Assembly: GCA_028277745.1 (NCBI GenBank)
Contig: JANQFR010000087.1
Span: 1 to 64,000, forward strand
Source: Phycisphaeraceae bacterium
GTDB lineage: Bacteria > Planctomycetota > Phycisphaerae > Phycisphaerales > Phycisphaeraceae
Direction: 5' to 3'
Length of the DNA stretch: 64,000 bases
The position numbers and the translations under genes were made by a program. Under the pieces are notes generated by a model. The model saw only the letters and a program-made list of their open reading frames with translations, was not told the origin of the DNA and ran no database searches. The first letter of the stretch is position 1. Every line of letters starts with the position of its first letter. Shown in pieces: positions 14,619-59,184 of this stretch.

Positions 14619-14810
14619 GGTAACCCAAGCCCGCATTGCCCCCCTTGCCCAGCCGGACTGTGTGGGTTTCGCCATCTTACGGCAGCGTTAGAACCGACTT
14701 GGGATCAGCCCCCACCGGGCCGCGCCGACTGGCCCCGGGCGGGACTGAATCGGTTGATTACAGGGCCGGGGAGACCACCGTCACAAGGCCCCCTCAGGAG
14801 TACCGGTCCC

Positions 14811-15251
14811 ATGTTCGTCTGGCAGATCATGTCGCAACGCCCCGTCACCGTCACGTTGGACGATCGCGTGGCGGATGCGCAGCGCCTGCTGAAACGCTAC
14901 GGCATCCACCACCTGCTCGTGGTCGATGACCGCCAGTTGATCGGGGTGGTGACCGACCGCGACCTGCTCAAGCACGTCAGCCCGTTCATCGACAAGCTCA
15001 CCGAGCGGCCGCAGGACGTGGCCACCCTCCAGCGGCGGGTCCACCAGGTCATGACCCGCCGGCCGGTCACGGTCGGCCCCGACGTGACCGCCCGCGAGGC
15101 GGCCCAGTGGATGTGGGCCCACGCCCTCTCGTGCCTGCCCGTGGTCGACGCCGAGAACCGGCCGATCGGCATCGTGACCCGCAGCGACATGCTGCTGAGC
15201 GTGTGCGTCCACCCCGAGCCTGTCGACGAGGACACGGCTTCGTTACCATAA
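14811..15251 (+). CDS. Tandem CBS-domain protein
   Basis: 146 aa consisting of one CBS pair: VTVTLDDRVADAQRLLKRYG with HHLLVVDDRQLIGVVTDRDL, then MTRRPVTVGPDVTAREAAQW with CLPVVDAENRPIGIVTRSDM. CBS pairs bind adenine nucleotides and act as energy sensors; no effector domain is fused here. AGGAG at 14796-14800 supports the ATG at 14811. Partner unknown. Confidence 0.88.
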   Translation: MFVWQIMSQRPVTVTLDDRVADAQRLLKRYGIHHLLVVDDRQLIGVVTDRDLLKHVSPFIDKLTERPQDVATLQRRVHQVMTRRPVTVGPDVTAREAAQWMWAHALSCLPVVDAENRPIGIVTRSDMLLSVCVHPEPVDEDTASLP

Positions 15252-46216: not shown

Positions 46217-47224
46217 ATGTCCGGGAACGGCTCTTTGCTGGCAAGGCTCTTACGGATCATTACGATGATCCAGGGGGATCGTCGATGGCGACCGGCGGCC
46301 ATTGCAGAATACCTGGGCGTTGGTGAGCGAACGGTCTATCGCGACCTCAAACGCCTCAAAGAAGGGGGCGTGCCCGTCGCTTTTGACGAAAAAATCGGCG
46401 GCTACTACATCCGGCGCGGTTTCTTTCTGCCGCCGATCGATCTCACGGCGGAAGAAGCCTGTGCGTTGCTCCTGCTCGCGGAGCGCGTCGGCGGAGCGGA
46501 CCAACTGCCGCTGACCCGGCCGGCCGGCAGCGCCCTGGAAAAGCTTAAAGGCGGCTTGCCCGAATCCTTGCGCGATGCGGTGAATGAGATTCTCCCACGC
46601 GTGTCGTTTCACCTGGCCGCGAGCGAGTCCGAGGGGATCGAAGACGCTTGGTCGACGGTATCCCGCGCGATCGCCGAGCAGCGCTCGCTGCGCTGTCGGT
46701 ATGAGCCGTCGGGGCGTCCGAACGGAGCGGAACCGGCCGGTTTCTTCCTGCTCGACCCCTACCACCTGTATTGGGGCCAGCGGGCGTGGTACGTAATCGG
46801 CAAGCATCACGGCCGAGGCGAAGCCCGCACGCTCAGGCTGGGACGCTTCACGCACGTCGAGATGACCGATGCGGGGTTTGATGCGCCCGAGGACTTCACG
46901 CTTGACGGATACCTCGGCCAAGCCTGGCGGATGATCCCCGGCGACCGCGTCCGGCGGCGCGTCGTGCTCCGCTTCGACGCGACCGTGGCGGAAACCGTGG
47001 CCGACACCTTCTGGCACCGATCGCAAGAGGTGGAGGAACACGACGACGGCTCGATCACCGCGCGCTTCGAGATCGACGGCCTCGACGAGATCGGATGGTG
47101 GGCCCTCGGCTACGGCCCCCACTGCGAGGTGATCGAGCCCGCGGAGTTGCGCACGCAAGTCGCCGGGTTGGCTCAAGCCGCCGCCCGTCATTACGCGGAC
47201 GACGCGGGCGGCGCCGGCTCATGA
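46217..47224 (+). CDS. WYL-domain transcriptional regulator (HTH_11 + WYL)
   Basis: 335 aa. N-terminal winged helix (LLRIITMIQGDRRWRPAAIA, LGVGERTVYRDLKRLKEGG) and a WYL sensor domain (about 140-330) with YHLYWGQRAWYVIGKH, the W-Y-V variant of the WYL motif. WYL proteins bind nucleic acids or nucleotides and often regulate metabolism or defence. It lies 70 bp after the rhamnosidase gene on the same strand, so local control of that gene is the simplest reading. Its 3' end overlaps the convergent kinase-like gene by 34 bp. Confidence 0.9.
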   Translation: MSGNGSLLARLLRIITMIQGDRRWRPAAIAEYLGVGERTVYRDLKRLKEGGVPVAFDEKIGGYYIRRGFFLPPIDLTAEEACALLLLAERVGGADQLPLTRPAGSALEKLKGGLPESLRDAVNEILPRVSFHLAASESEGIEDAWSTVSRAIAEQRSLRCRYEPSGRPNGAEPAGFFLLDPYHLYWGQRAWYVIGKHHGRGEARTLRLGRFTHVEMTDAGFDAPEDFTLDGYLGQAWRMIPGDRVRRRVVLRFDATVAETVADTFWHRSQEVEEHDDGSITARFEIDGLDEIGWWALGYGPHCEVIEPAELRTQVAGLAQAAARHYADDAGGAGS

Positions 47225-47742
47225 CGCCCGCCCGACGCCGGGGCGAAGCCGATGTTGCCGGGGTGCAGGTCCTCCAGCCACACCCCGTACCGCCGCCCGA
47301 GCTCGCCGTAGATCGCCAGCACCGCCGGCCACTGCCCGGGCTCGAACAGCGACTCCCAGTGCGCCCACCGCTCCTCGATGACTTGCGGGTCATCCCGGAA
47401 CACCTCTTCCCACGACACGTCCAGCCGGGCCTTCCCGAAATCGAGCACGAACGGCGGCGACACGATCGACATCTCGATGACGCCGAGGACGTCGTCATAT
47501 CTCAAGAGCTGCGGCGCCGTATGCCCCTGAACGGACGTCACCTGATGCTGGCGTAGCCTTAGGTAGGCGTCGCGCTCCCGGCCATAGGCCTCAACGCGAT
47601 CGAAGACCTTGACCGCTGAGAGGCTGGGGGTTTCGACCACAAGCCCCTCCAGGCCCGAGCCGAGCCGTCTGCACACGGAAAGACGGCCTGCCGAAATGAG
47701 CCTTTCCAGCCGTTGCGCCGCGGGTATACTGAATCCTGTCAT
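47191..47742 (-). CDS. Protein-kinase-like-fold protein (small)
   Basis: 182 aa. GSGLEGLVVETPSLSAVKVFDR resembles a glycine-rich loop and VAIK-like strand; LEDLHPGNIGFA resembles the catalytic loop H-x-x-N of aminoglycoside/choline kinase-like folds. The metal-binding DFG is not clear (VLDFGKARLDV occurs earlier in the sequence than expected), so it may be a pseudokinase or another family. Its ATG at 47742 overlaps, head to head, the ATG of the 91-aa gene at 47741 within TCATGA. Confidence 0.6.
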   Translation of the reverse strand: MTGFSIPAAQRLERLISAGRLSVCRRLGSGLEGLVVETPSLSAVKVFDRVEAYGRERDAYLRLRQHQVTSVQGHTAPQLLRYDDVLGVIEMSIVSPPFVLDFGKARLDVSWEEVFRDDPQVIEERWAHWESLFEPGQWPAVLAIYGELGRRYGVWLEDLHPGNIGFAPASGGRHEPAPPASSA

Positions 47743-48016
47743 GAAGAATCGCGCCCCAGAAGGCCCGCATTCCGCCGTCGTCCGGCTCTGGCTGGAATGC
47801 AGCGGCAAGACCATCCCGCTCGCCCAGGTCGCGCCGGACTGGGTGATCCCGCGCGAGCCGCGGTTGCTGCCCCCGGGCGAAGCGGTGGTCGTGGTCGAGA
47901 TCGACGGCCACCCCCGGCGGCGCCCAGTTTTTCTACCTCAAGGCATGTCGTCAACTCCCGATCAAGTCGTCCCAACGTCACCGCGACCCGCGGTTCTCAA
48001 TGAAGCCGTGCCGTGA
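47741..48016 (+). CDS. Small conserved protein of unknown function
   Basis: 91 aa. The first 65 residues (LWLECSGKTIPLAQVAPDW, then PPGEAVVVVEIDGHPRRRPV) form a compact beta-rich pattern seen in short planctomycete proteins; no function known. The last 25 residues look unstructured and overlap a degenerate CRISPR repeat, so the original gene may have ended near residue 68. TATACT ends 10 nt before the ATG. Confidence 0.55.
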   Translation: MKNRAPEGPHSAVVRLWLECSGKTIPLAQVAPDWVIPREPRLLPPGEAVVVVEIDGHPRRRPVFLPQGMSSTPDQVVPTSPRPAVLNEAVP

Positions 48017-48028
48017 AGGCACGGAGAA
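47994..48028 (-). CRISPR. Single degenerate CRISPR repeat upstream of the cas operon, inverted
   Basis: On the minus strand this stretch matches 27 of the 36 positions of the array repeat with one single-base gap (shared: CCGT-CCTTCAC, ACGGCT, CATTGA). The hairpin is kept with a compensated pair: stem CCGTACC/GGTACGG in the array is CCGTGCC/GGCACGG here (48006-48024). No T-run follows, so it is not an obvious terminator. It lies about 500 bp before cas3. It could be a relic of an old array or a repeat-like RNA element similar in principle to the degenerate repeats that control some type I cas operons. Confidence 0.75.
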
Positions 48029-48250
48029 GGCGCTTGCAGCCAGTGTAATCTTTTCACAAGCATCGCTTCCAGGAAAGCGCATATCCGCTAACGAAATCTG
48101 GTCCTAATTGATTCACCTGAGAAAACGGGGGCAATTGCCTCGAACAAAATGACCGGGATTTACGCCTCTGCCATGACGCTGTCAGTGGCCATCCGTGCTT
48201 TCGTTCATACTGCCTCTATCACACGGACGTGACCGGATGAAAGGCGGGCG

Positions 48251-48532
48251 ATGGAGCGCGCGGCGCATTGGCCCTGGGCGGGGGCGTGCGAGCCGCCGGA
48301 CGGCCTGTCCGGCGAGCGGCTCTGGCGGTGGTGTGTGCTGCGGACGCTGCGGGACGCACGGCTGGCGCGGGCCCGGGGCCGGTGGATGAGCCGGTCGGCG
48401 ATGGAGCGGCGCTTCGCCCGCCGGTGGGCCCAGGCGATGAAGGGCGGGCCAGACACGGGGCGCCAACGAACCACCGAACAGGGCCGGGCGATCCTCCGGC
48501 GGGCATACGACACGGGGACATTCAAGACATGA
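48251..48532 (+). CDS. Small very basic protein, first gene of the cas operon
   Basis: 93 aa, extremely arginine-rich (about 20 R), with W-rich helical segments (LWRWCVLRTLRDARLARARG, MERRFARRWAQAMKG). No family recognised. GAAAGG (48239-48244) is 6 nt before the ATG, and its stop overlaps the cas3 start as ATGA, so it is translationally coupled to cas3. Such a gene is not part of the I-G set I know. It may bind nucleic acid. It could also be a short translated leader that only sets the cas3 expression level. Confidence 0.6.
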   Translation: MERAAHWPWAGACEPPDGLSGERLWRWCVLRTLRDARLARARGRWMSRSAMERRFARRWAQAMKGGPDTGRQRTTEQGRAILRRAYDTGTFKT

Positions 48533-51342
48533 CGGACACACCTCCGGGCTTCGAAACGGCGTTCCACGCCCTGACGGGGTTTCAACCGTTCCCCTGGCAG
48601 CGACGGCTGTTCGACCGCCTCGTGGCCGGCGATTGGCCGGACGCCCTGGACATCCCGACCGGGCTGGGCAAGACCTCGGTGATGCCGATCTGGCTGCTGG
48701 CGCTGGCGTCGGGGAGCGCATCTCCCGGGGGCGTGCCGCGTCGGTTGGTGTATGTCGTAAACCGTCGGACGATCGTGGACCAGGCGACGGAGGCGGCCGC
48801 GCAACTGTACGATCGGCTTTCCGATCCGTCCTTGCGGACCTGCCGCGAGCGGTTGGCTCGTCTGGCGGGCCAACCCAATCCTTCCGAGGCCTCCGAGAAG
48901 GATTGTCTGGCGATCAGCACGCTTCGCGGGCGGCTCGCGGACAACCGGGCCTGGATGCGTGACGCCGCGCGGCCGGCGATCATCGTCGGCACCGTGGACA
49001 TGATCGGCAGCCGACTGCTGTTCGGCGCCTACCGATCGAGCTGGAAGCAGCGGGCGATGCAGGCCGGGCTGATCGGCCGGGACGCCTTGATCGTTCATGA
49101 CGAATCGCATCTGACGCAACCGTTTCAGTGGCTCCTGGAATGGGTGCGGAAAATACAGGAACACGACGGGTTCAGCGGCCGCCGACTGCGGGTCCTGGCG
49201 ATGTCGGCCACGTCGGTGGAGGAAGGCCGCAATGACCGGCCCACCAACGTTCCAACGCACGCCCCTGCCGTTTTCACACTGAACGATGCGGACCGGGCCG
49301 AGCCCATGGTCCGCCAGCGGCTCCACGCCGCCAAGCGATTGCGGCTGCACCCCACCGAGAGGCGGAGCCAGATCAAACGGCTGGCCGAGTTGGCCGCGGC
49401 GCACGAGGGCGGGGCCCGGCGGGTGATCATCTATGTCCGTTCGCCCGATGACGCCGACAAGGTGGTCAACGAGTTGACCGGCAAATCCCACGGCGTCGAC
49501 GCTGAGCGCGTCGCGCTGCTGACCGGCACGATCCGCGGCTTGGAGCGCGACCGGCTGGCTGAGGGAAAAGTGATCCGGGCGTTGGCCGGGCGGGATGAAC
49601 CGATTGATCAGACGCATTACCTGGTCTCGACCTCGGCCGGCGAGGTCGGCGCCGACTTCGATGCGGATCACCTGGTCTGCGACGCGGCCGCGCTCGACAG
49701 CCTCGTGCAGCGGCTCGGCCGGGTGAACCGGCGGGGCGAGGCGGAGCAGGCGGCGCGTATCGACGTGGTCCACGACGCTAAACCGCCGGTCAGACCCAGC
49801 CCCGTTGAGGCCGCCGCGATGAAGACCCTGGCCCTGCTCGAATCGGTGGCCGAAGACGACGACGGCGGTCGCGACGTCTCGCCCGCCGCGTTGCGTCACT
49901 TCGTGGACGGGCTGTCGCCCGACGACCGCCACGCCGCCTCTTCGCCGACGCCCGCCTGGTCGGCGCCGCATGAAGCGGTGCTCGACGCCTGGTCATTGAC
50001 CAGCGTGCGCGACCCCTGGCCATTGGCACACGGCATCGCGCCCTATCTGCACGGCCTCGAGGACGATCAGCCGCCCGAGACGACCGTTGCCTGGCGGGAA
50101 GAATTGAATGAAACCCGGGTTCCAGCAGATCCATCGCGGGCCGACCTTGAAGCGCTGGAGCCGTTGTTCAAGCGTCTCTACGCCTCGCACCGGCTTCAGA
50201 CGCACGAAACATTGACGCAGCGGGGGCGCCCGCCCAAGAAGCTGGTTCAATTAATTGCTAGGGCCCGTGATGCCGTGCTTGAGAAGTTGACGGGAGACGA
50301 GCGGACCCAGCCGGTCGTGGTGATCCGACGAGGCGACAAATGGGCCGCGCACGCGGTCACCGCGTGGGCCGATGACCGGGCCATCGCGGACGCCGTCACT
50401 GGGGCCACCGTGATCCTGCCGGTGGGTTTCGGCGGGTTGAGCGGCAAAGGGATGCTCAACCCGGATGCGAAAGACGCACCCCAAGCCGGGCTGGATGTCG
50501 CCGACGACCAGGAATATCAGAAGGAGGCGCCGCGGAGACGATTTCTGCTCGAACGTGACGAAGATGGGGGTTGGAGCGTGAGTGCATTGGGCCCCAAGCA
50601 GGAACTTGCGGCGGGGCTTGCCGACGAAAGCGCAGCCCGGGACCGAGGCATCGAATGGATCGAGCAAGACCAAAGACGGATGCGCGTCACCCAGCGGCTG
50701 GCATTGCGCACCGATGCCAGCGGCGACGCAGACCGTGTGCTGCTGGTGGCCGGGCCGCGTGAAGCTCCCAGCAAGCAAAAAAACGCGGTGCTCTTGGCCG
50801 ATCACGTCAGCGATGTCGTCGAGCGGGTCGATCGGGCTGCCGGCGGGCTGGGTTTTCACGAAGCGTGGCAAGCCGTTTGTCGCGTGGCGGCCGAGCTGCA
50901 CGACGAGGGTAAAAAGCAGCCCGTCTGGCAAAACGCGGTGTCCAACCCCAACCCGGACGAACCCTGGGGCAAGTCCGGGCGCAAAGGCATGAATGGGAAA
51001 ATCCTCAACGGCTACCGACACGACTTGCGTTCGATGATCGATGCGTTGAACGACCCTCGCTTCACATCCCTGGACGAGGCCGGCCGGGACCTGGTGTTGC
51101 ACCTGATCGCCACGCACCACGGCTTCGGCCGGCCGCACTTCACGCCGGAAGCGATCGAGCACCGGGCCAACGGCCTCGGCCCGCTGGATGACCGGCTCAG
51201 CCCGGCCGCGATCGCGCAGCGGTTCGACCGCCTGCAACGCCGGTTCGGGCACTGGGGCCTGGCGTGGCTCGAAGCGGTCTTCATGTCCGCCGACATCGCC
51301 GCCAGCGCCGACACCGACGCCGACGAGCAGGAGGACGGATGA
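48529..51342 (+). CDS. cas3: Type I-G Cas3 helicase-nuclease with C-terminal HD domain
   Basis: 937 aa. Superfamily 2 helicase first: FQPFPWQRRLFDRL (Q-like motif), DIPTGLGKTS (Walker A, K48), HDESH box at about 191-194, SATSVEE, SAGEVGADFDADHLVCD and QRLGRVNRRG (motif VI). The HD nuclease is at the C-terminus: ELHDEGKK (H791-D792) and THHGFGRPHF. This helicase-then-HD order is characteristic of subtype I-G (old I-U); most Cas3 proteins have HD first. It unwinds and degrades target DNA after Cascade binding. Confidence 0.95.
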   Translation: MTDTPPGFETAFHALTGFQPFPWQRRLFDRLVAGDWPDALDIPTGLGKTSVMPIWLLALASGSASPGGVPRRLVYVVNRRTIVDQATEAAAQLYDRLSDPSLRTCRERLARLAGQPNPSEASEKDCLAISTLRGRLADNRAWMRDAARPAIIVGTVDMIGSRLLFGAYRSSWKQRAMQAGLIGRDALIVHDESHLTQPFQWLLEWVRKIQEHDGFSGRRLRVLAMSATSVEEGRNDRPTNVPTHAPAVFTLNDADRAEPMVRQRLHAAKRLRLHPTERRSQIKRLAELAAAHEGGARRVIIYVRSPDDADKVVNELTGKSHGVDAERVALLTGTIRGLERDRLAEGKVIRALAGRDEPIDQTHYLVSTSAGEVGADFDADHLVCDAAALDSLVQRLGRVNRRGEAEQAARIDVVHDAKPPVRPSPVEAAAMKTLALLESVAEDDDGGRDVSPAALRHFVDGLSPDDRHAASSPTPAWSAPHEAVLDAWSLTSVRDPWPLAHGIAPYLHGLEDDQPPETTVAWREELNETRVPADPSRADLEALEPLFKRLYASHRLQTHETLTQRGRPPKKLVQLIARARDAVLEKLTGDERTQPVVVIRRGDKWAAHAVTAWADDRAIADAVTGATVILPVGFGGLSGKGMLNPDAKDAPQAGLDVADDQEYQKEAPRRRFLLERDEDGGWSVSALGPKQELAAGLADESAARDRGIEWIEQDQRRMRVTQRLALRTDASGDADRVLLVAGPREAPSKQKNAVLLADHVSDVVERVDRAAGGLGFHEAWQAVCRVAAELHDEGKKQPVWQNAVSNPNPDEPWGKSGRKGMNGKILNGYRHDLRSMIDALNDPRFTSLDEAGRDLVLHLIATHHGFGRPHFTPEAIEHRANGLGPLDDRLSPAAIAQRFDRLQRRFGHWGLAWLEAVFMSADIAASADTDADEQEDG

Positions 51343-52106
51343 TGGAGCACCCAAGCCCCACGATCACGATCGACGTTGATGTCGCCAACCCCGGCCAGTT
51401 CCTCGCCTGCTGCGGGCTGCTCGAATTGGCGAGCCGGCTGGATGAAGAGGCGTTGGGGTGGTTCACGACAGGACGCTTCCATCTCCGCGGCGCGGCCGGT
51501 GAATTATTCAAGCATGTTCACGAGGTGGATGTGATCCCGATCCTTGATGATGACGGCAGCGACCCGCCGTCTCCTCCTGTGCGGTTTGATCATCCATTCG
51601 GGCTGGTCCTGGATTGGTGGGAGGATGAAACGGCGACACGATCGGGTTTCAAGACGTGGTCCGGCGGACAAACCGTCATCGGGTTCATCGACGGCATGCG
51701 TGAACTCATGCGCCAGCACGGGAACCAAAACACCGATCTGCTCACCCGGGTGTCTGCCGTGGACAAGCCAAAACCCTTTTACTTTGACAGCCGGCTGTCA
51801 CGGCTGACCGCGATCGACATGGGCTTTTCCACGGAGAAATTCACCGCCTCGTTTTCTCCGAGCGTTGAATTCCTGACGCTGGTCGGCCTGCAACGCTTCC
51901 GCCCGATCACGGTCAAAGACCGCGAGCGTTATTACGGCTATCACACCTGGGAACAGCCGCTGCCCGTGCGCATCGCCGCCGCCGTCGCTCATGGCTTGAG
52001 CCCCAACCTCTCCCTTCAATCGTTCACCTTCCCGTTGGTCGTGCGGACCGGCGGGAAATACAAAGCTTTCGGCCCCGCAATCCCCGACAGGAGCAACCAT
52101 GCCTGA
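51342..52106 (+). CDS. csb3: Type I-G Cascade subunit Csb3 (Cas8-like large subunit)
   Basis: 254 aa. Starts ITIDVDVANPGQFLACCGLL, a pattern shared by Csb3 and related I-U large-subunit proteins; LGWFTTGRFHLRG and PVRFDHPFGLVLDWW follow. GGAGG is 7 nt before ATG 51342, which overlaps the cas3 stop by one base. In I-G loci this position is filled by csx17 or csb3; this is the csb3 variant. Probably helps recognise the PAM and recruit Cas3. Shorter than Csx17 by far. Confidence 0.85.
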   Translation: MEHPSPTITIDVDVANPGQFLACCGLLELASRLDEEALGWFTTGRFHLRGAAGELFKHVHEVDVIPILDDDGSDPPSPPVRFDHPFGLVLDWWEDETATRSGFKTWSGGQTVIGFIDGMRELMRQHGNQNTDLLTRVSAVDKPKPFYFDSRLSRLTAIDMGFSTEKFTASFSPSVEFLTLVGLQRFRPITVKDRERYYGYHTWEQPLPVRIAAAVAHGLSPNLSLQSFTFPLVVRTGGKYKAFGPAIPDRSNHA

Positions 52107-53172
52107 CCCACTCACCCAGTTCGATCATCTGCTCGCCGAGGACGGCCCGGCAGCGATCACGCTCAAACAGGCGCTCAAGCCCGTTGGCGAGGCGATCGTG
52201 TTCCCGCCGACGTATGCCGCACCTAAGGAAGACCGCAGCGGCAAGCCCAGCTACAACATCGACCGGTTCGGTTCGGGCGAGAACGCCCGGTCGGTCTGCA
52301 CGCTCGACAGCGTGCCGTCGCAGATCAACCGCATCGAGCCGGCGTTCGCCACGATCGCCGGGGGCAAGCTTGTCCCGCGGGTCGTGGTTAAAGCGAAGCA
52401 GCAGGGAGAAGAAGTCGAAGTCAACCTGCTTGAGGCGGGGCATCGGGCCGCTGATGCGATCGTTCGTTTCTCCGGGCTGACCGACGAATTGAGGGACGCT
52501 TTCAAACAGCGCCTCAAAGGCGACTCGCTGCCGATGGCTAAACTCGCGCCGACTTCTTTGGTTTTCGGCGCATGGGATTCGCGCGACACGGGGGCGAAGC
52601 TGCCCCGGCTGGTCAACGCCGTCATCCGGGCCTACGACGTGGATGAACTCAAGCGTTCGGCGCAATACGTGCCGGCCCTGCACGATTATGCGGAAGCGGG
52701 GGTCAACCCCGAGGCCGTCAAAAAGCTTTCGGAGCACGGCATGGCCGCGGTCCCCGCGCCCGGCCAGCTCGGCGGGGTGATCGCGCGTGGCGGGATCGTG
52801 CGTGAAGCGTCGCTGAACCTTGCGACGCTCCGCGACATCACCACGCCCGACGCCGACGAAGCGGTCAAGCTGCGTCGCTACCTCCTGGGTCTGGCGTTGG
52901 TGGCGTTGACCTATTTCGACGGCAAGACCCTGAACCTGCGGCAGGGCTGCCAGCTGACAGGCAAGCCCGATGAGCCGATGACGCGCAAGCTCATCAACGC
53001 CGACGGCGCCGAAGAAGATTTCGAGATCACGCGCGACGACGCCATCGCGTTCGCCGTCGCCGCCGCCGAGGCGTTTGGCGTGAGCGATGAGCCGCGCGAA
53101 GCGGTCTTCGACCCCAAGCTGGCCGCGAAGGCCGCCAAGGACGCCGCAAAAAAGAAGGGCAACGATGGCTGA
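52099..53172 (+). CDS. csb1: Type I-G Cas7 backbone protein Csb1 (GSU0053 family)
   Basis: 357 aa. RAMP-type crRNA-binding backbone subunit. Typical openings: LAEDGPAAITLKQALKPVGE, VFPPTYA, then DSVPSQINRIEPAF and GAWDSRDTGAKLPRLVNAVI. AGGAG precedes the ATG; overlaps csb3 and csb2 by 8 bp each. Several copies coat the spacer part of the crRNA in Cascade. Confidence 0.94.
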   Translation: MPDPLTQFDHLLAEDGPAAITLKQALKPVGEAIVFPPTYAAPKEDRSGKPSYNIDRFGSGENARSVCTLDSVPSQINRIEPAFATIAGGKLVPRVVVKAKQQGEEVEVNLLEAGHRAADAIVRFSGLTDELRDAFKQRLKGDSLPMAKLAPTSLVFGAWDSRDTGAKLPRLVNAVIRAYDVDELKRSAQYVPALHDYAEAGVNPEAVKKLSEHGMAAVPAPGQLGGVIARGGIVREASLNLATLRDITTPDADEAVKLRRYLLGLALVALTYFDGKTLNLRQGCQLTGKPDEPMTRKLINADGAEEDFEITRDDAIAFAVAAAEAFGVSDEPREAVFDPKLAAKAAKDAAKKKGNDG

Positions 53173-54622
53173 ACTGCAGATCACCATCCGATTTCTGGAC
53201 CCCCGATTCCACGGCCGGGGCGACGGCGGCGAACCGGAGTGGCCACCGTCGCCGATGCGGCTGTTCCAGGCCCTGCTGGCCGCGGGCAAGGCGCGGTGGA
53301 CCGAAGAACTGGCGTCGGCGTTCCGTTGGCTGGAAGCCCAGGCGCCGCCACTGATCCACGCGCCCCGCCCGGCGCCCGGCAGCGCCCGTCTCACCTACGT
53401 CCCTAACAACAACACCGACTCGCCCGCGCAGCTCCGCACCGCAAAAACCGTCGCGCCGACGCTGATGTCCGTGCAAGACAACGCTCAACGCCCGGAGGTG
53501 ACTTACCGCTGGTCCATCAACGCCGGCGATCGGTCTTATGCGCAGCGGATCATCGGAGCCGCTCGCCGGATTCGTGCGCTGGGCTGGGGGATCGACTTGG
53601 CAATCGGGCGGGGTGAGGTGATCGATACGCCGGCCGCTCGTGCCGGGGATCAACGGGAAGCATGGTTCCCTGAGCAGCAAGACGATATGACGCCAGCCAC
53701 GACCACGCTCCGCACCCCCGCCTCAGGCAGTTTGGCTTCGCTGGAGGCCGCGTATGAACAATCCTTGAAGCGGGTCGGCCCCGACGGCACAATCCACGAT
53801 AACCCCGGGCGGATCGTCTTTACGCCAACCGCTTACGGCCGATCGCAAGCCCGACCTACGATCGCTTTCGAGTTATGTCAGGCCGAGAATCCACAAACCT
53901 CCGCGCCCGTCCGTCTCACGCAGATCAAGTGCCTGGTGGCCATGATCCGATCCGCGGCGTCGTCGGCGACGGTCGCGCGGGCCCTTGGCGAGAACGGTGA
54001 GTTGCTCGTGAATCAGGTCGTGCTGGGCCATCCCCCGGATGCACCGGGCCCGCGTCTCTCGATCCTGCCGCTGCCGTCCATCGGCCACCCCCACAGTGAC
54101 GGCCGCATCCGACGCGTCATCCTCACTGAATCTTTCGACGGCGACGGCCGGGTCATCGGAACGCTGGGCGGTCTGCTGCACGGCCACGAGTTGGAACCCG
54201 AGCACCCCAAAGACCGCCTCGGCGCCCGGCTGATCAGAATTGACCAGCCGCCGCGGGACTCGGTCGTCCGCCGTTACTGCGACGATTCAAAGACTTGGGC
54301 GTCGGCCACGCCGGTACTCCTGCCCGGGTACGACAAACACAAGCAGCACCGCGGAGATCAACAGAAGCGCCTGGCCCGGGCCGAGCAGTTGCTGTGCAAA
54401 GCCTTGCGTCATGCCGACATCCAACAACCGGCCGAAATCGAGCTCAGCCGGGTCCCCCTGATCCCCGGAACCGCGCATGTCCATGATTACCGCCCACGCG
54501 AAAAACTTTCGCATTACCCGCGTTATCACGTCCGGCTTACTTTCAACCAGCCGGTGGCGGGGCCGCTGAGCATCGGGGCCGGTCGGCACGTCGGTTTCGG
54601 CGTCATGGCGGCCTGCGGCTGA
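53165..54622 (+). CDS. csb2: Type I-G Cas5-Cas6 fusion Csb2 (GSU0054 family)
   Basis: 485 aa. Starts LQITIRFLDPRFHGRGDGGE with EWPPSPMRLFQALLA, standard for Csb2. The C-terminal part (YHVRLTFNQPVAGPLSIGAG, then RHVGFGVM) carries the glycine-rich loop of a Cas6-like RAMP. It caps the crRNA 5' end and probably cuts the repeat hairpin to make crRNAs, since no separate cas6 exists. Confidence 0.93.
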   Translation: MAELQITIRFLDPRFHGRGDGGEPEWPPSPMRLFQALLAAGKARWTEELASAFRWLEAQAPPLIHAPRPAPGSARLTYVPNNNTDSPAQLRTAKTVAPTLMSVQDNAQRPEVTYRWSINAGDRSYAQRIIGAARRIRALGWGIDLAIGRGEVIDTPAARAGDQREAWFPEQQDDMTPATTTLRTPASGSLASLEAAYEQSLKRVGPDGTIHDNPGRIVFTPTAYGRSQARPTIAFELCQAENPQTSAPVRLTQIKCLVAMIRSAASSATVARALGENGELLVNQVVLGHPPDAPGPRLSILPLPSIGHPHSDGRIRRVILTESFDGDGRVIGTLGGLLHGHELEPEHPKDRLGARLIRIDQPPRDSVVRRYCDDSKTWASATPVLLPGYDKHKQHRGDQQKRLARAEQLLCKALRHADIQQPAEIELSRVPLIPGTAHVHDYRPREKLSHYPRYHVRLTFNQPVAGPLSIGAGRHVGFGVMAACG

Positions 54623-54639
54623 AACGACGGAGATTCCGC

Positions 54640-56424
54640 ATGCCCAGCAACGTCTCCCCCCTCACCGACGAGCAACAGCTCACGCTCGACATGGTGCATC
54701 AGTACGCCTATTGCCCGAGGCGCTACCACCTGATGTACATCGAGGGGCGGTGGGCGGACAACGCATACACGATCGAGGGGCGACAGGCGCATCGGCGTGT
54801 GGACAAGCTGGACCACGTGCTGCCGACGCCGGACGCGGATGGCGGAGGCGCCTCCGAGGACACTTCCGGGGGCGCGGCGGCGCCCGCTCCAGCGGGCGGC
54901 TCGACCGCCCGAGAGCAGGGTGACGACCCGCCGGTGATCTCGCGGTCGGTCCCCTTGAGTTCTGACGAGCTTGGCGTCACCGCCAAACTCGACCTGGTCA
55001 GCTCTGACGGCCGCGAGGCGATGCCGGTAGACACCAAGCGCGGCAAGGCGCCCAACAACCCGCAACGCTCGTGGGAGCCCGAACGCGTTCAACTGATGGT
55101 GCAGGGGTTGCTCCTGCGCGAAGCGGGATACGCCTGCGACCGGGGCGTGCTGTATTTCGCCGGGTCACGCACCCGAGTCGATGTCCCTTTCACCGGCGAG
55201 CTCGAAACCCGCGCCCGTCAACTGGTCCATGACACGCATCTCGCTTCGCGGAACACCACGATCCCGCCGCCACTGGAGGACAGCCCCAAGTGCAACGGCT
55301 GCTCGCTGGCCGGCGTCTGCATGCCCGACGAAACCCTCGCCATCGCAGCGGCGGACGATGGGCAGGCCCGCGTTGAAGGCCGCAGCCATCCGCCCGATAT
55401 CCGCCGGCTGTACCCCGCCCGGGAACACGCTATACCACTATATGTGCAGGAGCAGGGCGCTGCTGTGGGCAAACGCCACAGCCGACTGATCATACGTCAA
55501 CAGCGCGACACCATTGCGGAGGCGCGCCTCAAGGACGTTAGCCAGCTCGTGCTCTGCGGCAACGTGCAGGTGTCCACCCAGACGGTTCATCTGCTGTGCG
55601 AAGCCGGCATCCCGGTGGTGTACCTCTCGACGGGCCACTGGTTCAGCGGCATCACAATCGGGCAAGGCCTGCGGAACGCCTACGACCGCGCCGCCCAGTT
55701 CCAGACTGCCGCCGATCGCGAACGCTGCCTGGCGTTCGCCAGGCAACTCATCATCGATAAGGCCGCCAACCAGCGCAATATGCTGAGGCGTAACGCCAGG
55801 CCGCAGGACCGCACGCTCGGAGATATGCAAGACCTGATCGACCGCATCCAAGCCGTTTCTTCTCTCGAATCCCTGCTGGGCATGGAAGGCAACGTCGCCG
55901 CGATCTATTTCCAGAACTTCGCCGAGATGCTCAAGGCCCGCACGCTGGATACCGCGTGGGATTTCCGGGGCCGCAACCGCCGGCCGCCGCGCGACCCGGT
56001 CAACGCGCTGCTGTCCTTCGGCTACGCGATGCTCGCCAAGGAATGCACCATCGCCCTCCTCGCCGAGGGGCTCGATCCCTGGTGGGGGTTCTACCATCAG
56101 CCGCGACATGGTCGGCCGGCCCTGGCGCTCGACCTCATGGAGCCGTTCCGCCCCACCGTTGTCGATTCCGCCGTCATCACCGCCATTAACACCGGGATGG
56201 TGCAGAACCGCCACTTCACCCGGTCCGACGCCGGCTGCATCCTCCAACCCGCTGGACGAAAAGCTTTCATCCGAGCTTACGAAGCCCGGCTCGACCAGCT
56301 CGTCACCCACCCCGTCTTCAATTACCGCTGCACATGGCGCACCGTGATCCGCATCCAGGCCCGGCTGCTGGCCCGTTGGCTTCGCGGTGATGTCGCCAGC
56401 TATACGAGCGTCATCACGAGATAA
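54640..56424 (+). CDS. cas4-cas1: Cas4-Cas1 fusion, spacer-acquisition protein
   Basis: 594 aa. N-terminal Cas4 nuclease (1-235): Cys25 in YAYCPRR, MPVDTKRGK nuclease lysine motif, and CNGCSLAGVC (Cys218, 221, 227) for the iron-sulfur cluster. Cas1 integrase (about 255-594) keeps Glu416 (LLGMEGNVA), His486 (WWGFYHQ) and Glu501 (LALDLMEPFRP). A 40-residue low-complexity insert (about 65-105, GGGASEDTSGGAAAPAPAGG) interrupts Cas4. The fusion is typical of I-G; Cas4 selects PAM-bearing prespacers that Cas1 inserts. Confidence 0.95.
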   Translation: MPSNVSPLTDEQQLTLDMVHQYAYCPRRYHLMYIEGRWADNAYTIEGRQAHRRVDKLDHVLPTPDADGGGASEDTSGGAAAPAPAGGSTAREQGDDPPVISRSVPLSSDELGVTAKLDLVSSDGREAMPVDTKRGKAPNNPQRSWEPERVQLMVQGLLLREAGYACDRGVLYFAGSRTRVDVPFTGELETRARQLVHDTHLASRNTTIPPPLEDSPKCNGCSLAGVCMPDETLAIAAADDGQARVEGRSHPPDIRRLYPAREHAIPLYVQEQGAAVGKRHSRLIIRQQRDTIAEARLKDVSQLVLCGNVQVSTQTVHLLCEAGIPVVYLSTGHWFSGITIGQGLRNAYDRAAQFQTAADRERCLAFARQLIIDKAANQRNMLRRNARPQDRTLGDMQDLIDRIQAVSSLESLLGMEGNVAAIYFQNFAEMLKARTLDTAWDFRGRNRRPPRDPVNALLSFGYAMLAKECTIALLAEGLDPWWGFYHQPRHGRPALALDLMEPFRPTVVDSAVITAINTGMVQNRHFTRSDAGCILQPAGRKAFIRAYEARLDQLVTHPVFNYRCTWRTVIRIQARLLARWLRGDVASYTSVITR

Positions 56425-56427
56425 TCG

Positions 56428-56718
56428 ATGGCCCGACGGCACTACCTGGTCAGCTACGATGTCAGCGACGACAAACGCCGCAACCGGGTCTTCCAGACAT
56501 TGGAAGACATCGGCGATCACGTGCAGTACAGCGTGTTTCTCTGTGAACTATCACGCCGAGAGCTGGCTCAGCTCCGATCACAGCTTGTCGATCACGTTCA
56601 CCAACGTGAAGACCAGGTGATGATCCTAGACTTGGGTCCTGCGCACCTCAGCCTGGAAACCGCACTCGAGATCATGGGCCGGCCACACGAACCGTTGGTG
56701 CGAACACTGATCGTCTGA
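56428..56718 (+). CDS. cas2: Cas2 spacer-acquisition subunit
   Basis: 96 aa. RHYLVSYDVSDDKRRNRVFQ is the Cas2 ferredoxin-fold start with the metal-binding Asp; QYSVFLCELSRRELAQL and VMILDLGP follow. Bridges two Cas1 dimers during integration. Begins 3 bp after the cas4-cas1 stop. Last cas gene before the leader. Confidence 0.95.
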   Translation: MARRHYLVSYDVSDDKRRNRVFQTLEDIGDHVQYSVFLCELSRRELAQLRSQLVDHVHQREDQVMILDLGPAHLSLETALEIMGRPHEPLVRTLIV

Positions 56719-56988: not shown

Positions 56989-59184
56989 GTTTCCGTACCT
57001 TCACAGGTACGGCTACATTGAAGCTTTGTGTTCGGCTCCGGTTACCCGGCCGGGGAAGACGTTTCCGTACCTTCACAGGTACGGCTACATTGAAGCCTTA
57101 TCAGCCTTAGTGTTGTGGGTTATTGTAGCGCTGTTTCCGTACCTTCACAGGTACGGCTACATTGAAGCCGTCCCGTCGGGCGACGGCTCCGCGACGTCGT
57201 CGTAGTTTCCGTACCTTCACAGGTACGGCTACATTGAAGCTATATGCGCAGCGCTTCCCACCCGCCGATAATCTCCGTTTCCGTACCTTCACAGGTACGG
57301 CTACATTGAAGCCCTCTTTTCGTGATGTCGGGCACGAATTTGGTCCGCGTTTCCGTACCTTCACAGGTACGGCTACATTGAAGCACTTCACAACATCAAC
57401 GTGAAACGGCCAGGCGTGACGTTTCCGTACCTTCACAGGTACGGCTACATTGAAGCGTTCTCGCAGGCCAGGGCGTTGTTCGAGGACTTCTGTTTCCGTA
57501 CCTTCACAGGTACGGCTACATTGAAGCGCTCATCCGCCGTGTGCCAGGTGGGGCAAGTACGCCGTTTCCGTACCTTCACAGGTACGGCTACATTGAAGCG
57601 GTCCGGTCACAAGGACGATTGCGTGGGGGTCGAGGTTTCCGTACCTTCACAGGTACGGCTACATTGAAGCCTTTCCCCTCCCGCGTTGGCGGAATGGATC
57701 AATCAGGTTTCCGTACCTTCACAGGTACGGCTACATTGAAGCCAGATTAAAAATGCTCAAGGAACACCGCTAAGCCCGTTTCCGTACCTTCACAGGTACG
57801 GCTACATTGAAGCGATTCCAAAGTAGAGGAAGCTGCGCGGGAGATTGCGTTTCCGTACCTTCACAGGTACGGCTACATTGAAGCCTCGCAGACGCGGAGG
57901 CAGTAGCCCCGGCTCGGCCGCGTTTCCGTACCTTCACAGGTACGGCTACATTGAAGCGTGCTAATTTGCGTCGTGTTTACTTCGCGTTGTTCTGTTTCCG
58001 TACCTTCACAGGTACGGCTACATTGAAGCTCTTCAGCTTCGTCTTGTGTCAACATCGTTGCGATGGTTTCCGTACCTTCACAGGTACGGCTACATTGAAG
58101 CTACTGTTCGAAAAACTCCTCGTGCTTCCCGTCCACCGTTTCCGTACCTTCACAGGTACGGCTACATTGAAGCTTGCGTCGTTGCCATTGACAGATGAGT
58201 CCGGAGCGGTTTCCGTACCTTCACAGGTACGGCTACATTGAAGCTCACCACCGCGCCAGGACGCAACTGCTCGAGATGTCGTTTCCGTACCTTCACAGGT
58301 ACGGCTACATTGAAGCTCACATCTGAATCCTTGCGGAGCAAGAACCCACATGGTTTCCGTACCTTCACAGGTACGGCTACATTGAAGCGTCTTCGTCCGC
58401 CTGGGTGAGGTAGTCCCAGAGGTGTTTCCGTACCTTCACAGGTACGGCTACATTGAAGCCAGCACGTCGCCGACCGCTGCGGCGTCAGCAGGTCGGTTTC
58501 CGTACCTTCACAGGTACGGCTACATTGAAGCTACCTGCCCGACTTGCCCGTCGTAGCACGGTGGACGGGTTTCCGTACCTTCACAGGTACGGCTACATTG
58601 AAGCACTAACAGCCCCCCCGCTAACGTGGTCGAGCTTGCCGGTTTCCGTACCTTCACAGGTACGGCTACATTGAAGCGATGCGTTGCGAGGCTGCGGGGC
58701 AACAGACAGGAGTCGTTTCCGTACCTTCACAGGTACGGCTACATTGAAGCTCGTGAAGTCGGTTGCACTACCGTTGATTGAGGTAAGTTTCCGTACCTTC
58801 ACAGGTACGGCTACATTGAAGCATCAGGTCCTGCTCGGCCTCGGCCTGCTGGCGGGCGCGTTTCCGTACCTTCACAGGTACGGCTACATTGAAGCATCCG
58901 CAGATTGTTATTAGCGGCATTACACAGGACCAGTTTCCGTACCTTCACAGGTACGGCTACATTGAAGCGAGTTGAACCGGCTCCGCGAGTACAGCGGCAT
59001 CACCATTTCCGTACCTTCACAGGTACGGCTACATTGAAGCGCGACGCCCGTTGTTGTCGTCATGGGCATCGTCGGGGTTTCCGTACCTTCACAGGTACGG
59101 CTACATTGAAGCCCGGTGTATCCGGGCGATATCCGGAACATCAAAGACGTTTCCGTACCTTCACAGGTACGGCTACATTGAAGC
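56989..59184 (+). CRISPR. Type I-G CRISPR array, 31 repeats and 30 spacers
   Basis: Repeat length 36: starts GTTTCCGTACCTTCACAGG and ends TACGGCTACATTGAAGC, first copy 56989-57024, last 59149-59184. Spacers are 35 (6), 36 (18) or 37 nt (6). All repeats are identical except the 29th (59005), whose first base is A. The repeat folds into an 8-bp stem CCGTACCT/AGGTACGG with loop TCAC, so crRNAs would carry the 5' handle AUUGAAGC. Transcription is rightward from the leader next to cas2. No spacer match was found in the window by eye. Apparent ORFs here are artefacts. Confidence 0.99.

Follow-up and report, generated by a model that had tools for sequence, protein, structure and literature searches.

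A Degenerate CRISPR Repeat Upstream of a Type I-G cas Operon as Part of a Putative Two-Repeat Guide Unit

A degenerate CRISPR repeat, here called psiR2, lies upstream of the type I-G cas operon in the window, i.e., the whole 64,000-nucleotide stretch of DNA that was analysed. We predict, with a probability of about 0.7, that it forms the second repeat in a mini-CRISPR on the minus strand, one that groups with crRNA-like guides located upstream of cas3 in I-G loci. The window unit is placed in this putative guide class by its position, orientation and anatomy. The features seen in 16 relatives are the repeats, their geometry, the seed matches, the PAM and the phase of the mismatches; from these sequence features we infer transcription, processing and repression for the class.

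The genome is 5.1 Mb in size, and its complete type I-G locus, cas3g through cas2, ends at position 56718 of the window. The unit, the cas operon and the array are arranged as follows.

47994..48028, minus strand: psiR2, degenerate repeat with the 7-bp hairpin kept and the handle decayed (own-repeat match, hairpin z and covariance model)
48029..48064, minus strand: psiS, putative 36-nt spacer GATGCTTGTGAAAAGATTACACTGGCTGCAAGCGCC (position between both repeats)
48065..48100, minus strand: psiR1, putative strongly decayed repeat (72-nt pitch; like anatomy in relatives)
48101..48250, no strand: intergenic stretch from the unit to the first cas-operon ORF, the expected place for a cas-promoter target
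48251..48532, plus strand: 93-aa ORF with a 4-nt overlap with the cas3 start (48529), no family match
48529..51342, plus strand: cas3g of type I-G (TIGR02621, 622 bits)
51339..52106, plus strand: cas8g2 (TIGR04106, 153 bits)
52099..53172, plus strand: csb1, i.e., cas7g (TIGR02570)
53165..54622, plus strand: csb2, a cas5-cas6 fusion (TIGR02165, 279 bits)
54640..56424, plus strand: cas4-cas1 fusion (NF049935, 692 bits)
56428..56718, plus strand: cas2 (TIGR01573)
56989..59184, plus strand: CRISPR array with 31 repeats of 36 nt, repeat GTTTCCGTACCTTCACAGGTACGGCTACATTGAAGC

Csb2 is the crRNA-processing enzyme of I-G (PMC9638904). Because the 93-aa ORF overlaps the start of cas3, the operon may begin at 48251, about 220 bp from the element. 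No relative of this ORF was found among the I-G loci collected, and no sigma-70 consensus promoter was found in the intergenic stretch in front of it.

Read on the minus strand from 48028 to 47994, psiR2 is TTCTCCGTGCCTTCACGGCACGGCTTCATTGAGAA, which is identical to the array repeat at 27 of 36 positions with one gap. All of the pairs in its 7-bp stem are intact, including one compensated swap from A-T to G-C, and the handle reads ATTGAGAA where the array repeat has ATTGAAGC. The coordinates, the identity, the opposite strand and the A-T to G-C change had all been given in a first-pass annotation of this DNA, and they proved correct on realignment. The array repeat and psiR2 have a local alignment score of 21, and 11 is the score of the real repeat's second-best site in the window; when 40 dinucleotide-shuffled repeats were run against the whole window, the top score was 14 (mean 11.9, sd 1.2). 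The psiR2 hairpin has a folding energy of -12.9 kcal/mol (z = -3.87), and none of 200 shuffles was as good. A pattern derived from the repeat and allowing up to three mismatches has psiR2 as its only match genome-wide outside the array, and a scan of the genome contigs with the exact psiR2 sequence gave no match.

Hairpin shape gives a less exclusive result. Under a generic covariance model built from 31 I-G repeats, psiR2 is the top-scoring site of the window once the array is set aside (18.2 bits, E 0.014), and it comes second in the whole genome, again without the array (E 1.33). The better match, at C95:8353, is a longer GC-rich stem-loop amid unrelated sequence. Equal-scoring hairpins elsewhere in the genome, which the first-pass annotation had named as evidence against its proposal, are thus absent when the genome's own repeat is the query, and there is one, scoring slightly higher, under the generic model. 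The shape of the hairpin alone is not unique and the match to the genome's own repeat is, and the claim rests on own-repeat similarity and context, not on hairpin shape alone. The slightly higher score of one unrelated hairpin speaks in favour of reading psiR2 as a chance hairpin, a terminator or a regulator site unconnected with CRISPR. However, we consider such an origin very improbable, given that the own-repeat score exceeds the maximum from the shuffled repeats and that repeat-derived units occur at a like place and orientation in relatives. The terminator version was rejected, as there is no T-run and no terminator-like site.

Initially described as a single repeat, psiR2 is instead the better-preserved second repeat of a unit that we read as psiR1, spacer and psiR2. 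The remnants of psiR1 are a handle end, CTGGAAGC at 48065-48072, that agrees with the array handle at 6 of 8 positions, plus a weak 4-bp stem. The pitch from psiR1 to psiR2 is 72 nt, which is the pitch of the array. The psiR1 fold is no better than that of shuffles, and the assignment of psiR1 is weaker than that of psiR2; the chance of a 6/8 handle at such a spacing is estimated at about 1%. The spacer was also considered as an internal hairpin, and this was rejected because its structure is not above that of shuffles (z 0.39). In psiR2 the hairpin is still in place and the handle has decayed; in psiR1 the handle end survives with almost nothing of the hairpin. An I-G crRNA has its 8-nt handle first and its hairpin last, Csb2 cutting 4 nt beyond the stem (PMC9638904). 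The pieces kept in psiR1 and psiR2 are the two that would be expected in a mature guide.

Comparable units recur upstream of cas3 in other I-G loci, mostly on the minus strand. The loci were drawn from 400 genomes belonging to the same order, from 80 loci of a GTDB genome scan and from 13 more loci of the phylum, which gave 105 distinct I-G loci, each with at least 250 bp upstream of cas3. In the order and GTDB sets there are 34 candidate repeats (at least 7/8 of the handle plus a hairpin) in 28 of the 93 loci; a comparison with the upstream regions of other I-G loci had been proposed in the first-pass annotation. Relatives that have targets also show decayed flanks together with an intact stem.

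In 16 I-G loci, the first 17 or so nucleotides of the spacer match a TTN-flanked site upstream of the locus's own cas3. Fifteen of these guides are above the threshold (L032, L048, L051, L058, L061, L062, L069, L078, L082, L097, L104, L111, L124, L130 and L131), and the 16th target-bearing guide, L147, was found in the phylum sample. L094, which has a similar site with the PAM TCC and mismatches at positions 1, 6 and 12, was left out of the count. The PAM of I-G is TTN (PMC9638904), and in a search that was blind to the PAM, TT was present at 13 of the 16 best sites compared with 5% of all sites. Reversed spacers, used as a control, gave no targets at the 7/8 handle stringency and two artefact-like ones at 6/8.

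The mismatches in these guides have a regular pattern. The counts at spacer positions 1-13 in the 15 guides are 0, 0, 1, 0, 0, 10, 0, 1, 4, 0, 1, 10 and 1; that is, they cluster at positions 6 and 12 (10 of the 15 guides each), with at most one at each of positions 1-5, 7, 8, 10 and 11. In type I guides, the nucleotides at positions 6 and 12 are flipped out. The score leaves positions 6, 12 and 18 unpenalised, and unconstrained mismatches are expected there; the informative evidence is the matching outside 6/12/18, plus the drop from 15 guides with the 6/12/18 mask to 7-10 when other phases are masked. Furthermore, the match stops well short of the end of the spacer in every target-bearing guide, which argues against recent self-targeting spacers and for binding without destruction.

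Two of the loci, L058 and L062, have one-repeat guides between about 400 and 190 bp ahead of cas3, in which a handle is followed by a spacer with a near-perfect seed target; a second repeat was not detected. A CreA with a single psiR exists in Haloarcula hispanica.

The spacer of the window copy behaves differently in the target search. No TTN-flanked seed match was found within 3.5 kb upstream of cas3, and no PAM-flanked seed match was found genome-wide with up to one mismatch in 14 positions. The segment 47950-47993, which had been suggested for comparison with the cas promoter, was also read as a one-repeat guide in several registers and has no PAM-flanked target near cas. Shifting the spacer by up to 6 nt either way gave, as the best TTN candidate, 48115 on the plus strand (3-nt shift; mismatches at 1, 3, 6 and 12), which is not above chance and was rejected. 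A 14-nt exact spacer match at C32:89983 (G000, L140), at the start of a 210-aa ORF, has the PAM TCT and is probably due to chance, with about 0.04 such matches expected genome-wide by our estimate; it was not counted. A defining property of CreR is a spacer seed that matches a PAM-flanked site in the cas promoter. No such match was found for the window copy, and therefore it is not classed as CreR. The initial suggestion of a CreR/CreA-like element in I-G is strongly supported for the subtype by the PAM-flanked partial targets of the 16 other loci; for the window locus the support is partial, as the anatomy fits and no PAM-flanked seed match was found.

The missing target bears on whether the window unit is a non-functional relic, either a former guide or a stray mini-array, in which handle, spacer and target have drifted apart. 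We rate this at only slightly less than an even chance. Besides the lack of a target, psiR1 is down to 6/8 of the handle, compared with 7-8/8 in the target-bearing guides, and no unit was detected upstream of cas3 in L056, which has the nearest available relative of the window's cas3 (43%). However, the psiR2 stem is unbroken and has one compensated pair, though about one third of the flanking positions have changed, and unconstrained decay should have broken this stem. The preserved stem with its compensated pair beside changed flanks suggests that selection kept the hairpin after the element had left the array. The same combination of decayed flanks and intact stem in relatives with targets also speaks against a mere relic. 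Returning to the guide class, we judge the window copy to be a drifting or decaying member, or one whose target is unrecognised; that its guide still works is conceivable, and we lean modestly against it.

The surroundings tie the window copy to the working class. Three genes lie on the upstream side or overlap psiR2.

46217..47224, plus strand: WYL-domain regulator (PF13280 and PF25583)
47191-47814, minus strand: kinase-like 207-aa ORF, no family match
47741-48016, plus strand: small 91-aa ORF, no family match

The WYL regulator has relatives on the upstream side of the unit in L032, L051 and L147 as well (tblastn). Relatives of the kinase-like gene, the small ORF or both are beside the guides of L061, L104, L094, L048 and L147, and L061 has the same order as the window: kinase-like gene on the minus strand, small ORF on the plus strand, unit on the minus strand and cas3 on the plus strand. 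These neighbours, however, are not specific to CRISPR loci. The kinase-like one was considered as a CRISPR-specific partner; this was rejected because its relatives are also present in genomes where no I-G cas3 was detected, and G745 has one far from cas3.

The positions of the targets in the relatives indicate what the guides might control. In L069, L104, L061, L078, L058 and L147, no more than about 260 bp separate the target from the cas3 start, and this interval holds no toxin-like gene; the simplest reading of this arrangement is repression of the cas promoter, as in CreR. In L032, L051, L124, L130 and L111, ORFs or terminators intervene between target and cas3. A good promoter directly follows the target in L111, L032 and L130, and a short hairpin follows it in L032 and L051. 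L130 has a near-consensus promoter after the target and then, at once, a strong terminator (at about 465 to 400 bp before the cas3 match); this pair predicts a very short RNA, which would be a CreT-like candidate.

These arrangements raise the question of whether the unit could serve as antitoxin guide in an addiction module of the CreTA or CrePA type, repressing a toxic short RNA or protein instead of cas. The targeted promoter that precedes a terminator-ended short transcript in L130, the short hairpin and tRNA-Arg(CCT) in L032, and the HNH ORF followed by a terminator in L124 are compatible with such a module. However, the six loci with targets close to cas3 have no toxin-like gene between target and cas3, and the window yielded no toxin candidate; overall, we regard the addiction module as improbable.

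Three observations concern individual relatives. In L032, a tRNA-Arg(CCT) gene (14805-14877, minus strand) lies beyond the promoter and short hairpin RNA, next to the site that the guide matches. Sequestration of a rare tRNA-Arg is how the CreT toxins of haloarchaea work, and so this locus may be a toxin-type module. L124 has a 105-aa HNH ORF with its own terminator between target and cas3 (from 484 to 167 bp before the cas3 match), which is possibly a protein toxin partner of the CrePA-like kind. In L078, a truncated second copy of the cas3 N-terminus, about 49 aa long, immediately precedes the full cas3, from about 170 to 20 bp ahead of the cas3 match.

A mechanism for the guide class can be proposed as follows. 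The unit would be transcribed, and Csb2 would cut 4 nt past each hairpin, so that the 8-nt 5' handle comes from psiR1 and the 3' hairpin from psiR2. Once loaded with this guide, the I-G Cascade would bind a TTN-flanked site in or close to the promoter from which cas is expressed. As pairing would end after about 17-19 nt, Cascade would block transcription and Cas3 would spare the chromosome, making Cas levels self-limiting in the manner of CreR. At some loci, the repressed promoter might instead drive a short RNA or a small protein (CreTA- or CrePA-type). If this mechanism holds, the role of the class is probably that of an immune system turning itself down.

Such a mechanism is already known from other systems. 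CreR has been reviewed for types I-B, I-E and V-A (PMC13131331, PMC12737573), and the 2026 review gives RNA-guided Cas self-repression for these three only (PMC13131331). I-G is called the least understood of the type I subtypes (PMC9638904). Like CreR, the class described here consists of a mini-CRISPR beside cas genes with no dedicated protein, and the related I-G loci share with it a partial PAM-flanked match upstream of the cas genes. Unlike described CreR, this class belongs to subtype I-G, with predicted Csb2 processing and a TTN PAM; the window copy also differs in having no recognisable target.

CreTA has been characterised in haloarchaeal I-B (PMC8501985, PMC9458426) and Acinetobacter I-F (PMC10097628) systems. 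In CreA, psiR1 provides the 8-nt handle and psiR2 the 3' handle, the seed is 1-5 and 7-11, and changes at positions 6 and 12 are tolerated (PMC8501985). Degeneration of the repeats, with psiR1 more decayed than psiR2, is a hallmark of CreTA (PMC9458426). The window unit resembles CreA in its psiR1-psiS-psiR2 order, in the greater decay of psiR1 and in the handle and hairpin that psiR1 and psiR2, respectively, would supply; the related I-G guides resemble it in the seed at 1-5 and 7-11, the free positions 6 and 12 and the one-repeat forms. Unlike CreTA, no toxin was found in the window and the targets of several relatives are directly upstream of cas3. Cas9 autorepression and the Francisella scaRNA are alike in that a CRISPR effector with a non-canonical guide represses a chromosomal promoter (PMC13131331, PMC9458426); they differ in having a class 2 effector and another origin of the guide, and so they are an analogy and not a relative. 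We found no report of CreR or CreA guides in I-G in the open-licence literature, in agreement with the first-pass annotation, and a report outside that literature is possible. As far as checked, the novelty lies in the subtype, in the spread over several phyla and in the candidate strains.

A like logic of seed, PAM and mismatches is present in I-G loci of Planctomycetota, Verrucomicrobiota, Acidobacteriota, Binataceae and Proteobacteria, which points to either an old origin or a repeated emergence of guide-based self-control. A wider reading, which is speculative and in our opinion rather unlikely, would be that in I-G of several phyla Cascade is widely a self-programmed repressor by way of psiR1-psiS-psiR2, that some lineages have coupled it to new toxins and that the window is at a late stage of turnover. 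The candidate toxin partners would be an HNH protein or a short terminator-ended RNA, one of which lies next to tRNA-Arg(CCT). The freedom at positions 6 and 12 is, in addition, comparative evidence for a six-nucleotide periodicity in the pairing of I-G guides, which is a trait of other type I systems. Finally, candidates for the guide class are present in Lamprocystis purpurea DSM 4197, Verrucomicrobium sp. BvORR106 and Thermopetrobacter sp. TC1, and so they can be tested in named isolates.
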